A DNA stretch of 64,000 bases from Bacillota bacterium (lineage in GTDB: Bacteria; Bacillota; Limnochordia; Darwinibacteriales; Darwinibacteriaceae), in the NCBI GenBank assembly GCA_012840725.1, contig DURQ01000092.1:1-64000 (forward strand). Reading direction: 5' to 3'. The notes below the pieces were generated by a model that was given only the letters and a program-made list of their open reading frames with translations, was not told where the DNA came from and made no database searches. The translations under genes were made by a program, and so were the position numbers. Shown here piece after piece: positions 35,456 through 39,604 of this stretch; position 1 is the first letter of the stretch; every line of letters starts with the position of its first letter.

Positions 35456-36343
35456 TTAGAAATCTCCTTTAACTGCTGCGATGGGAAAACTGACGCTGTG
35501 GATGCCGGCCTGGGAAGCGTCCGCGGACTGCCTGGTCCACCTGGTGGGTGTCAGTTCCGGCCTGAGGGGCTCCATGATGCGCTGAGCCACTGCAGTGCTT
35601 GCCGCAACTTTTTCAGCCTTTTCCTCCAACGCAGGCGGATCTGACATGGTTAGCCTCGTCTCAATCTTTAAAGGGACAACTGGCCCCGATGGCTGCTGGA
35701 GGGCCATGTACCTGCTTGGTGAAATGCCCGCCAGTTTAGCTTCTGTCTGGAAGGAGCGCGGGACTTCCCAGATACGTACGTCAGCCAGCCTGGCACTGCG
35801 CAGAGCATCGGCAACTTCTCTTTCCACGCCGCTGTACTGCTCGCTGCTTTTCTCTTTCACAGAGGCTGCTCCACCGTTCACAGCCGCAACGGTTACTACC
35901 GCCTGCTTTGCGCCGCCGGCCTTGGCCGCGATGGCCTGCACCGCCGAGCGGAGATCAGCCCCAACTACATCCAGGTTCTGCGCCAGTTCCCGTCCGTTTC
36001 GGTTCAGCCCTTCAACGCTTAAGACCTTGCGGTCTGAGCTGACGGCCAGCTCAAAACTGGAGTCCAGATCAAGAGTGACGATGAAGGCGGGCACAGCCGA
36101 TTGGGGCACAAGCCGCTCACTGATCATAGGCCAGCTGCCCAAAAGCGTCAGAAACAGCACCGCGGCAGCAGAGAGCTGCCAGACGTTCAGCCGTTCCTTG
36201 CGGGGGGTGTAACGGATCTCCTGCCCCACCTGGACATGCTTGTGGAAAGGGATTTTCAGAAACTCCCCTTGAGGCGTCAGTATGATCACCTTGTTCTTGG
36301 GAGCGATCTCTACCACAATCCCCTTGTGCTTCACCTTCTCCAC
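35456..36343 (-). CDS. rsgI: Anti-sigma factor RsgI
   Basis: Membrane anti-sigma factor holding SigI inactive. An N-terminal RsgI domain (about 1-50, [25 protein letters not shown]) faces the cytosol and binds sigma. One transmembrane helix (about 55-72) follows, then the extracellular RsgI-type domain ([34 protein letters not shown]) that undergoes self-cleavage in clostridial proteins. The last 100 residues are a low-complexity, Pro/Ser/Ala-rich tail with no carbohydrate-binding or enzyme module, unlike the RsgI proteins of cellulolytic clostridia. The start is ATG at 36343, seven bases after sigI. The signal sensed is unknown. Confidence 0.9.
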
Positions 36344-36350
36344 CTCCTTT

Positions 36351-37100
36351 TCACTCCGGTCGGTTCAGATATTCCTGCAGATGATAGAAATCTCCGATAA
36401 GGATCAGTGCCAGCGTGATTATGTACTTACGCTGCCGCTCCAAGGTCTTGCGGCTCACCTTCACCCTGGCTTCCAGTTCTTTGAGAGGCAGTGACTTCTT
36501 GCGGGTCAGGTAGCCGAGCAGTTCGGGATCGCTGATGAGAGCCTTGGCTACCTGGAGGGCCCGGTCTCGGGCATCCTGGTGCCTCGGCGATATCTTAACC
36601 AGTTCAGAAAAGCGAATACCGTAGTGGCTGAGGAGCTGATCGAGCCGGAAGATTTCCTCACGCCGCTGCTCCGTTTCTTCCTGAATCTGCAGGACAGTGT
36701 GGGCTTCCTTTGATTCGATCTTCTGCAGGACGCCTTCTTCGTTTTCATCAGTCTCAAAGGTTGAGAGGGGGATTTCCTCGGCCCTTTTGCTCTGCCGGCG
36801 GAAGTAATCCACCATGCGGCGTTTGACCACGATTTCGGCGAAACTGAGAAAAGAGGCTCCGCCGGAACGATCAAAAGAGTCTATGGCTTCGTTGAAGGCA
36901 ATCATGGCAATGCTGGCCTCGTCATCACGGCCGAGCACCAAGTACTTGCGGCAGCAGTTGGACGCAACTCGCAGGTAGAACGGGCGGTAGTCCTGGAGAA
37001 GTTTCTCCCGAGCTGCTGTGCTTCCGGCCTGTGCTCTGGCGACCAGCTCTGCCAGCTGGCTTCGTTCATCTGATGATCTGAAGGCGTGCGTCGTGGTCAT
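36351..37100 (-). CDS. sigI: RNA polymerase sigma factor SigI
   Basis: Alternative sigma-70 family factor of the SigI group, linked to heat, envelope or polysaccharide sensing. The region-2 part is seen at about 30-105 (LLQDYRPFYLRVASNC, FNEAIDSFDRSGGASFLSFAEIVVKRRMVDYFRR), and the C-terminal SigI domain ends with KSLPLKELEARVKVSRKTLERQRKYIITLALI. It has 249 residues; ATG at 37100 follows AAGGGAGG. It lies 51 bases after era and directly before rsgI. A possible self-recognised promoter (ACCCTC and CGAA) lies in the gap. Confidence 0.92.
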   Translation of the reverse strand: MTTTHAFRSSDERSQLAELVARAQAGSTAAREKLLQDYRPFYLRVASNCCRKYLVLGRDDEASIAMIAFNEAIDSFDRSGGASFLSFAEIVVKRRMVDYFRRQSKRAEEIPLSTFETDENEEGVLQKIESKEAHTVLQIQEETEQRREEIFRLDQLLSHYGIRFSELVKISPRHQDARDRALQVAKALISDPELLGYLTRKKSLPLKELEARVKVSRKTLERQRKYIITLALILIGDFYHLQEYLNRPE

Positions 37101-37151: not shown

Positions 37152-38042
37152 TCACTCGTACCCGAACTCTCTTAACGCCCCCGGTTTGTTGCGCCAGTCC
37201 TTTTTCACCTTAACCCAGAGCTCGAGGTGGACGCGGGTACCGAGAAGCCTTTCCATCTGCAGCCGAGCGCTGGTGCCCACTTCCTTGAGCATGCGGCCGC
37301 CCTGGCCGATGACAATGCCCTTCTGGCTCTCTCGCTCCACATAGATTGTTGCCCTTATTCTCATCAAATTCTTCTCCGCCACCTCTTTGATCTCCTCCAC
37401 ATCCACGGCGACCGAGTGAGGGACCTCCTCTTCAGTGCGGAGAAACAGCTCTTCCCGGATGAACTCTGCAACGAGGAAGCGCTCGGGCTGATCGGAGAGC
37501 CAATCATCGGGGTAGTACTTGGGCCCTTCCTCCAGCCGCTCCACGATCAGAGAAACCAGCTCTCCCAGATTGCTCCCCTGCAGGGCCGACACTGCCAGTG
37601 CGGCAGCGAAGGCACGCTTCTGTCCCACTCTCTCCAAAAAGGCCTCCAGCTCCCCCTGCGATACCTGATCGGCCTTGTTGGCCACAAGGATCAGGGGCTG
37701 CTGAACCTCTGCGAGTTCAGCCAAGATGTGGTTATCTGCAGCGGTCCATCTGCCGGCCTCTACCAGCCAGAGCACAACATCAACGTCTTCCAGAGCCTGC
37801 AGAGCGCTCTTAACCATGTACTCGCCCAGCTTGTGCAGGGGCTTGTGCAGTCCCGGCGTATCCAGGAAGACGATCTGGGCATGATCCAGCGTCAAGACGC
37901 CCCTGATGGTGTTGCGTGTTGTCTGGGGTTTGTCTGAGACTATGGCCACCTTCTGGCCGAGGAGGGCGTTGAGCAGCGTGGACTTACCCACATTCGGCCG
38001 TCCAACCACAGCCACAAACCCGGATCTGAACGGTTCAGTCAT
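37152..38042 (-). CDS. era: GTPase Era
   Basis: Ras-like GTPase with a KH domain that binds the 3' end of 16S rRNA and assists 30S assembly. G1 is GRPNVGKSTLLNALLG, G2 PQTTRN, G3 DTPGLHK and G4 NKAD. The KH part contains IYVERESQKGIVIGQGGRMLKEVG. It is 296 residues from ATG at 38042, or 299 from GTG at 38051; the overlap with cdd (8 bases) makes the choice uncertain. It belongs to pgpH-ybeY-dgkA-cdd-era, the standard order in Bacillota. recO, often next, is replaced here by sigI-rsgI. Confidence 0.96.
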   Translation of the reverse strand: MTEPFRSGFVAVVGRPNVGKSTLLNALLGQKVAIVSDKPQTTRNTIRGVLTLDHAQIVFLDTPGLHKPLHKLGEYMVKSALQALEDVDVVLWLVEAGRWTAADNHILAELAEVQQPLILVANKADQVSQGELEAFLERVGQKRAFAAALAVSALQGSNLGELVSLIVERLEEGPKYYPDDWLSDQPERFLVAEFIREELFLRTEEEVPHSVAVDVEEIKEVAEKNLMRIRATIYVERESQKGIVIGQGGRMLKEVGTSARLQMERLLGTRVHLELWVKVKKDWRNKPGALREFGYE

Positions 38043-38448
38043 TTCTCTCACCCATCCCCAAGTCTCGCTTAGTGAAAGACCCAGGAAGCAGCGTCTGCAG
38101 CGAGGTCTGCACCATTTCTCCTTTGAGGTTGCCCAGGTAGATGGGCATCTCCGGATCGAAGAATTCAGCCATCACCTGGCGGCAGACGCCGCAGGGAGGT
38201 ACAGGCTGCTCGGTATCGGCCACGACAGCTAAGGCCGTGAAATGCCTTGTTCCTTCTGACAGCGCCTTGAAAATGGCGGTCCGCTCCGCACAGTTCGTGG
38301 GGCTGAAGGCGGCATTCTCGATATTGCAGCCGAGGTACACCTGTCCATCTGCAGCCAGCAGGGCCGCTCCGACCTTAAAGTTGGAATAGGGGACGTACGC
38401 CATTTCCCTTGCCTTGATGGCCAGTTCCATCAGTTCTCTTCCTGTCAT
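38035..38448 (-). CDS. cdd: Cytidine deaminase
   Basis: Homotetrameric zinc enzyme deaminating cytidine and deoxycytidine in pyrimidine salvage. The zinc and catalytic motifs are NCAERTAIFKA (Cys and catalytic Glu) and PCGVCRQV (two Cys). The start YVPYSNFKVGAALL is typical. ATG at 38448 (137 residues) has AAGGTG nine bases upstream; the frame open to 38538 reads into the previous gene and has no conserved residues. It overlaps era by eight bases. Confidence 0.96.
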   Translation of the reverse strand: MTGRELMELAIKAREMAYVPYSNFKVGAALLAADGQVYLGCNIENAAFSPTNCAERTAIFKALSEGTRHFTALAVVADTEQPVPPCGVCRQVMAEFFDPEMPIYLGNLKGEMVQTSLQTLLPGSFTKRDLGMGERND

Positions 38449-38465: not shown

Positions 38466-39137
38466 CTAAGCGATCATCCGCAGAAAGAACAGGGCCACAG
38501 AACACCCAATCAAGGCGCCTGTGACCACTTCCCACCAACTGTGCAGCCTGCCTTCCACCCTGCTCTGGGCGACCAGGAGGGCTAAGGCAAGACCAGCTAA
38601 CGCGGCAAACCCTCCGCTGACTTCCCAGATAGCTGCAGCTAGGGCAAAGGCAGCCGCCGCATGCAGCGAAGGCCGGGAGCCCTGCCGAAGTGCCCGCCAG
38701 CCAACAGCGACCGTGGCCGCGGCTGCCAGGACCAGCACGATCATATAAGGCTCTGGAACCGGACGGATGAGCAGCTGATCAAGGCGGAGCAGATAGTCGA
38801 TGAACACCAAATAGCCGACAGCTGCTGCGGCAAGGGCCGTAACCAAGACCCCTCCAGCGGCGATCTTCTTCACCGTTCCAGCGAGGGGATGGTAAGCGGG
38901 CTGGATCAGATCCACCATCCGTTCAACGGCTGTGTTGAACAGCTCCGCAGCAAAAACCATACCGATGGCGAAAACTAAAGCGATCACTTCAAGACGGCTT
39001 GCGCCCAGGACTGCGGCGAGGAGAACAACCAAAAGGCCGAGGAGAACATGGATGCGCATGTTCCGTTCCGAGCGCACCACGAAGGCGACGCCTTCCAACG
39101 CGTCGCTGAAGCTCATCCAGATGCTTCGCTGCCTCAC
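38466..39137 (-). CDS. DgkA-PAP2 fusion: undecaprenol kinase-like plus phosphatase-like membrane protein
   Basis: Integral membrane protein of about 223 residues. The N-terminal half is a diacylglycerol/undecaprenol kinase domain with three helices and the signature ELFNTAVERMVDLIQ (active-site E, N and E near 67-74). The C-terminal half carries PAP2 phosphatase motifs: RPSLHAA, a variant of PSGH, and SRVEGRLHSWWE, a variant of SRx5Hx3D. The site expected to be Lys-Asp in the kinase (VKK near 92) has lysine instead of aspartate. The best start is GTG at 39137, with GGGAGAG seven bases upstream; a TTG lies at 39143. It sits between ybeY and cdd, where a plain dgkA is found in B. subtilis. A role in undecaprenyl phosphate recycling is inferred. 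Confidence 0.88.
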   Translation of the reverse strand: MRQRSIWMSFSDALEGVAFVVRSERNMRIHVLLGLLVVLLAAVLGASRLEVIALVFAIGMVFAAELFNTAVERMVDLIQPAYHPLAGTVKKIAAGGVLVTALAAAAVGYLVFIDYLLRLDQLLIRPVPEPYMIVLVLAAAATVAVGWRALRQGSRPSLHAAAAFALAAAIWEVSGGFAALAGLALALLVAQSRVEGRLHSWWEVVTGALIGCSVALFFLRMIA

Positions 39138-39139
39138 CG

Positions 39140-39604
39140 TCAATCTCTCCCTAAGCCCAGCTCCTTGAGGACACTCTCTTCCAGAGCCCGCATCTCCTGC
39201 TCTTCCTCTGGGGTCTCGTGGTCGTGGCCCATGAGGTGGAAAAACCCGTGTACGGCGAGGAAGAGCACTTCCCGCTCCAGGGAATGGCCGTACTCTGCAG
39301 CCTGCTCCTCAGCCCGTTCCAGGGAGATGACAATATCACCTAACAGGCGAGGCAGGCCTTCCGCTTGGCCGAACTCTCCGTCGTCTTCATCTTGAGGAAA
39401 GGACAGGACGTCGGTAGGCGCTGCAATCCCCCGGTATTGAGTATTCAGGTCCGCGATGGTGCTGTCGTCGACAAAGGAGATACTCACTTCCCACGGGTCC
39501 TGCAGCTGCTTGATATCGGCAGCCAGGCGAAACGCCCTGCGGATCAGCTCCTCAAATCTGGTGGTATCTTCCTGCGGCAGGTCACTGCTGAACAGTATTT
39601 CCAT
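39140..39604 (-). CDS. ybeY: Endoribonuclease YbeY
   Basis: Zinc-dependent single-strand endoribonuclease for 16S rRNA 3' end maturation and 70S quality control. The zinc motif HGFFHLMGHDH is intact near residues 123-133, and the preceding PTDVLSFPQDE and LGDIVISLERA are family marks. It has 154 residues. It overlaps the end of pgpH by 23 bases, which suggests coupled translation. The neighbour era works on the same rRNA end. Confidence 0.96.
   Translation of the reverse strand: MEILFSSDLPQEDTTRFEELIRRAFRLAADIKQLQDPWEVSISFVDDSTIADLNTQYRGIAAPTDVLSFPQDEDDGEFGQAEGLPRLLGDIVISLERAEEQAAEYGHSLEREVLFLAVHGFFHLMGHDHETPEEEQEMRALEESVLKELGLGRD

Follow-up and report, generated by a model that had tools for sequence, protein, structure and literature searches.

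A DgkA-PAP2 fusion from a Limnochordia genome, with a probable lipid kinase and a phosphatase half that may be decaying in its genus

The fusion gene and its neighbours

The window, i.e., the 64,000-nucleotide stretch of DNA analysed here, belongs to a draft genome of 103 contigs that is 84% complete and is classified in the Limnochordia. On its minus strand the gene order is phoH, a 7TM-HD gene, ybeY, the gene under study, cdd, and era. The gene under study is a single open reading frame that codes for a DgkA half at the N-terminus and, at the C-terminus, a PAP2 core of four helices, and in this respect the initial annotation, which placed both enzymes on one chain, was right. The features used below are as follows.

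38466..39143, minus strand: DgkA-PAP2 fusion gene, 225 aa (from the list of open reading frames, Pfam, and same-architecture orthologues among 84 distinct fusions)
39143, minus strand: TTG start codon of the fusion gene, with an alternative in-frame GTG two codons on, at 39137, the end given in the initial annotation
38466-38468, minus strand: stop codon of the fusion gene
38790..39143, minus strand: DgkA kinase half, residues 1-118, a surface helix and three membrane helices (Pfam and structure match)
38865..38867, minus strand: Lys93 codon, AAG, corresponding to Asp95 of E. coli DgkA (read from the sequence)
38469..38765, minus strand: PAP2 half, residues 127-225, a four-helix PAP2 core in which the first two helices of an ordinary PAP2 protein are missing
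38694..38696, minus strand: Arg150, at the C1-like Lys position (Lys in 80/84 fusions)
38661..38675, minus strand: C2 motif RPSLH, residues 157-161 (family version GGMPSGH)
38529..38564, minus strand: C3 motif SRVEGRLHSWWE, residues 194-205, Glu last, with every catalytic residue of the family present
39140..39604, minus strand: ybeY, upstream neighbour (Pfam YbeY, 2.1e-45), sharing four bases with the start of the fusion gene
38035..38448, minus strand: cdd (cytidine deaminase), downstream neighbour (Pfam dCMP_cyt_deam_1, 8.5e-20)

We take the cdd start to be the ATG at 38448; the mechanical open reading frame begins at 38538. Elsewhere in the window, at 35456-37100, there is a sigma factor gene with a gene for an RsgI-like anti-sigma factor behind it (Pfam Sigma70_r2, RsgI_N, RsgI_M).

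Fold and distribution of the fusion

Both halves score above the curated Pfam cut-offs. DAGK_prokar (PF01219) is present as a full domain at residues 15-114 (E 6.2e-32, 109.9 bits against a cut-off of 22.3) and PAP2 (PF01569) matches residues 154-223 (E 6.8e-7, 29.5 bits against 27.2), the latter match spanning only positions 48-124 of the 130 in the profile. An AlphaFold2 model of the window protein built from 49 sequences (mean pLDDT 87, pTM 0.51) has DgkA-like helices to residue 119 and four more long helices between residues 131 and 224. Compared with solved structures, 113 residues of the modelled kinase half superpose on DgkA crystal structures at an rmsd of 1.9 (Z 15.2). Residues 127-223 match LpxE (6ebu; Z 13.0, with 97 residues at rmsd 2.7), ahead of the B. 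subtilis PAP2 5jki (Z 11.3) and E. coli PgpB 8bm3 (Z 9.9). We also modelled L078, a full-length fusion found in another class (mean pLDDT 89.7); it has the same layout, and its PAP2 core aligns with LpxE at Z 13.2 and rmsd 1.8 over 99 residues. Both models were read for helix positions and fold matches only.

With E. coli DgkA and the Gram-positive undecaprenol kinase (PF01219), the window protein shares the fold and the four catalytic residues (Glu, Asn, Glu, Lys); it differs from E. coli DgkA in the added C-terminal PAP2 core and in the Lys at the Asp95 site, which is Asn in most of the family. With PAP2 proteins of the LpxE, PgpB, and YodM/BcrC type (PF01569), the fusions share the C2 Ser-x-His, the C3 Arg-x5-His spacing, and the four-helix core. 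Unlike ordinary PAP2 proteins, they are without the first two helices, end C3 in Glu where Asp is standard, and would, judging from the number of helices, have the core in the opposite orientation. The K-x6-RP C1 motif was not seen ahead of C2 in the aligned fusions, which have instead a lone Lys shortly before the Gly-Gly (Arg in the window protein), and because this motif is absent we refer to the C-terminal half as a divergent PAP2-fold domain rather than a standard PAP2 enzyme. The DUF212 ‘divergent PAP2 family’ (PF02681) gives a weak match (E up to 0.01; best 5.9e-5) to 35 of the 49 aligned fusions and reaches only E 0.4, below the cut-off, with the window protein, whereas PF01569 matches 49/49 and with a better best E-value.

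The source protein finds a match in 94 of the 100 nearest genomes, many of them kinase-only. The alignment set comprised 49 clean full-length fusions, every one of which matches both Pfam families. In a sample of 299 genomes spread over the phylum, one match covers both halves in at least 48, 10 of these being the source genome or relatives in its class. The DgkA-PAP2 architecture is ordinary in the group and widespread in the phylum; a search of open-licence PubMed Central found no description of it. Other arrangements occur in the data: four loci of family f11 in the same class (L061, L064, L071, L073) have DgkA in-frame with a cytidine deaminase-like domain, recognised by eye from alignment motifs, and at L068 (genome G064, which gave no BacA match) the fusion frame breaks after the C2 region.

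Residue changes in the kinase and phosphatase halves

The residue counts cover 123 sequences, of which 84 are distinct fusions and 39 are unfused DgkA. The kinase residues equivalent to E69, N72, E76, and K94 are invariant in both sets (84/84 and 39/39) and correspond to E67, N70, E74, and K92 of the window protein. Site 93, by comparison with E. coli Asp95, is Asn in 59 fusions, Asp in 20, His in two, and Lys, Glu, and Gln in one each; in the unfused sequences it is Asn in 29, Asp in 8, and His in 2. The initial annotation had noted VKK in place of AKD. The VKK at residues 91-93 is real, but the residue that the family usually has there is Asn rather than Asp. Asp95 of DgkA binds the ribose hydroxyls of ATP, and among the Asp95 mutants described for the E. 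coli enzyme the Ala form is inactive, the Glu form loses 76% of its activity, and the Asn form is only slightly affected (PMC4703834). Given the small loss in the Asn mutant, we rejected Asn at this site as a defect. Lys occurs in 1 of the 123 sequences, that of the window; its five genus-mates and the four nearest genera have Asn, and the ribose-binding Asp or Asn, which does not define the family, is absent from the window protein. At another position, the metal-ligand site of E. coli Glu28, 60 of the 84 fusions and 24 of the 39 unfused DgkA have Gln, and the window protein has Glu.

Lys93 should weaken binding of the ATP ribose, but it is unlikely to mean a dead kinase. Between the window and its five genus-mates, dN/dS of the kinase half is 0.06-0.17 (Nei-Gojobori, with dS near or past saturation), and the kinase half of the window species remains under purifying selection. 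Near Lys93, the changes E75R, T81Q, D83A, and I91V are unique to the window among its nine nearest relatives, and its kinase branch is the longest in the genus (0.24 vs 0.07-0.18 in genus-mates). Lys93 and this long branch could instead be the marks of a failing kinase. Because the catalytic residues are kept, dN/dS is low, and this is the sole DgkA found in the genome, we judge the window kinase to be active, perhaps with weaker ATP binding.

In the phosphatase half, the final residue of C3 is Glu in 77 of the 84 fusions, Gln in 5, and Asp and Gly in one each. Glu205, which the initial annotation had counted as a change in the active site, is present but is the norm for the family, and we rejected it as a defect. 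The SLH for SGH noted alongside it holds up, as RPSLH at residues 157-161. Site 160 is Gly in 72 fusions, Ala in 4, Leu in 3, Trp in 3, and Phe in 2; Leu is therefore unusual (3/84), and all three Leu160 fusions belong to the window's genus. Gly160 is replaced in 12 of the 84, nine of these lying outside that genus. Apart from Glu for Asp the window C3 is complete, and C2 reads PSLH. Alignment of the fusions thus makes Glu205 a general feature and Lys93 and Leu160 unusual ones, and the suggestion that all active fusions might carry the same residues is borne out for Glu alone.

The genus of the window is represented by six members (the window and L005-L009). We scored departures at columns conserved in ≥90% of 43 other fusions (17 columns in the PAP2 half and 23 in the kinase half), with a leave-one-out control as the baseline for the 43. 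In the PAP2 half the genus members, window first, have 3, 5, 3, 4, 2, and 1 departures, a mean of 3.0 of 17 columns against a mean of 0.65 and a maximum of 3 in the other fusions (one-sided Mann-Whitney p 1.6e-4, a value that shared descent makes too small). In the kinase half there is no excess (0.83 in the genus vs 1.16 in the others over 23 columns; two-sided p 0.80). The earlier idea that one half may be inactive therefore fits the phosphatase half of this genus and finds no counterpart in the kinase half. Departures in the PAP2 half include K150R, G156S, M157R, and G160L in the window; G155R, G156S, G160L, H201D, and E205D in L005; K150Q, G155R, and G160L in L006; K150R, G155R, and G156S in L007; G156S in L008; and H161R in L009. 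Two members have thus lost a motif His, L005 that of C3 and L009 that of C2.

The PgpB mutants described in the literature indicate what such changes might cost: the C3 His-to-Ala mutant is inactive, making this His essential, D211A keeps 0.07% of activity, Gly162Ala keeps 0.8%, G162D has none detected, and the C2 mutant H163A keeps 27% on C55-PP (PMC7413402). On the strength of these activities, the phosphatase of L005 is expected to be inactive, that of L009 may retain some activity on C55-PP, and the window phosphatase, with Leu at the PgpB Gly162 site and its motif His intact, is probably weak. As the window protein retains an intact C3 motif together with the Ser and His of C2, its phosphatase need not be dead. 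Outside the class a motif His is also lost, in L115, L117, and L118 (f67; His161 to Gln) and in L120 (f127; His201 to Ser). The kinase residues are intact in all six fusions lacking a motif His.

Evolutionary rate is less informative. The dN/dS of the PAP2 half in the genus is still well below 1, and the ratio of PAP2-half to kinase-half dN (1.3-2.4) is matched by family f10 (1.35-3.25); because of this match, rate alone is no marker of decay, and we rejected the whole-half dN ratio as a decay test for its lack of specificity. In g9, a sister genus in the same family, dgkA stands between ybeY and cdd without a PAP2 half or remnant at 7/7 loci read. The deletion is clean, with cdd directly behind dgkA (L043, L045, L046, L050, L052, L054, L057). 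In the kinase-half tree g9 forms a clade (bootstrap 100) nested within fused members of the family (99-100), and the PAP2 half was therefore lost there. The fusion family is ordinary; the oddities of the window protein are real but local.

Proposed function and membrane orientation

We interpret the gene product as a lipid kinase of the undecaprenol type, with the DgkA/UdpK fold, that bears a PAP2 phosphatase core at its C-terminus. In intact members the kinase half would convert undecaprenol and ATP to undecaprenyl phosphate, and the phosphatase half would convert undecaprenyl pyrophosphate to the same product, both substrates being predicted. The recycling loop first proposed for the pair would then not arise, as two activities that both yield undecaprenyl phosphate converge rather than cycle. 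For the window protein, the reading that we favour, with some reserve, is a working, possibly weakened, undecaprenol kinase that carries a decaying phosphatase. In the window species the kinase retains all four catalytic residues. Across the genus, constraint on the phosphatase half would be relaxed and its site in the course of being lost, probably as BacA does the main job. The architecture, the residue frequencies, the pattern of decay, the loss of the domain in g9, and the presence of BacA are direct observations; the substrates, the level of activity, and the side that the phosphatase faces are predictions.

The source genome encodes one BacA, a plain undecaprenyl-pyrophosphate phosphatase, along with one UppS-family prenyltransferase and one DgkA; no second DgkA and no second PAP2 were found in it, absences that carry little weight at 84% completeness. 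BacA is present in 70 of the 72 genomes searched in the class, the source genome included; in other classes, 37 of the 38 genomes with a fusion also have it, the exception being a 72%-complete draft. We rejected the fused PAP2 as a BacA replacement on these counts, and because BacA is present nearly throughout, the fusion adds to it. The initial annotation had also envisaged that the plain enzymes are present and the fusion dispensable. BacA is indeed there, and the PAP2 half is dispensable in g9, but a second DgkA was not found in this incomplete genome.

We consider it unlikely that both halves are active in the window species, with Lys93, Leu160, and Arg150 tolerated and the protein supplying undecaprenyl phosphate from two sources. 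The intact C2 Ser and His and C3 Arg, His, and Glu of the window protein would fit, as would dN/dS below 1 in each half and the several fusions that have Ala, Trp, or Phe at site 160 and retain the other motif residues. However, the window protein combines loss of the C1-like Lys, loss of the Gly-Gly, and a shortened C2 loop, the Gly162Ala mutant of PgpB is down to 0.8% (PMC7413402), and same-genus relatives have lost motif His residues. Less probable still are opposing halves, the phosphatase reversing the kinase (from UndP back to undecaprenol, or from PA to DAG) and setting pool size, a control that the genus would be abandoning. PAP2 enzymes do act on monophosphates too (PgpB on PGP; PMC7413402), and helix parity, considered below, puts both sites on one face, where they could share one pool; the coexistence of BacA with the fusion in nearly all genomes is uninformative either way. 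It is very improbable that Lys93 is an assembly or sequencing error for the Asn (AAC or AAT) of the five genus-mates, since the window-unique changes nearby and the long kinase branch fit real divergence, even though AAG is one base from either codon, Lys is unique among the 123 sequences, and the genome is a fragmented, incomplete draft.

DgkA has its N-terminus in the cytosol and its C-terminus outside, and in ordinary PAP2 proteins two helices precede the core. The LpxE alignment, which starts at residue 50, fits two such helices. The hydropathy profile of the 84 fusions is consistent with seven helices crossing the membrane (35-72, double-length; 95-117; 132-151; 165-191, double-length; 207-224), three of them in the DgkA half, and this layout would therefore set C2 and C3 on the cytosolic side. 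DgkA works at the interface of membrane and cytosol (PMC4703834), and the active site of PgpB is described as periplasmic (PMC5852022); with three DgkA helices in place of two, the fused PAP2 core should therefore be inverted.

Evidence from the positive-inside rule on this orientation is mixed, and all p-values of the charge tests are too small owing to related sequences. Counted along the full protein, Lys/Arg are more numerous in the loops proposed as inner in 80 of the 84 fusions, but these loops have no higher net charge (1.51 inside vs 2.07). Within the PAP2 half, leaving aside catalytic residues, the proposed outer loops have more Lys/Arg (3.37 vs 2.29 in the inner loops; of the 84 fusions, 58 have more outside, 8 have more inside, and 18 are tied), which argues against inversion. 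The stretch opposite the motifs argues for it, with a mean of 0.28 Lys/Arg in the fusions (n=82) vs 1.20 in same-class ordinary PAP2 proteins (n=30; p 4.7e-4), and Lys/Arg of the C-tail does not differ between fusions and same-class ordinary PAP2 proteins (p 0.54).

It is a tentative and somewhat doubtful suggestion that the PAP2 core is inverted, its site facing the cytosol beside the kinase site, such that intact members would be cytosol-facing undecaprenyl-pyrophosphate phosphatases, an activity that the window's genus would be dropping. If this is true, newly made undecaprenyl pyrophosphate could be converted to undecaprenyl phosphate without a flip. Known undecaprenyl-pyrophosphate phosphatases (BacA, PAP2) are described with sites outside the cytoplasm, a restriction treated as an open question in a 2025 review (PMC12826051), and a BacA structure paper argues that newly made undecaprenyl pyrophosphate needs a pyrophosphatase on the cytoplasmic side (PMC5852022). 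A widespread fusion with a predicted cytosol-facing PAP2 core makes the sidedness of undecaprenyl-pyrophosphate phosphatases directly testable, and the window's genus and its sister genera offer natural variants in which intact, damaged, and deleted phosphatase halves stand on the same kinase.
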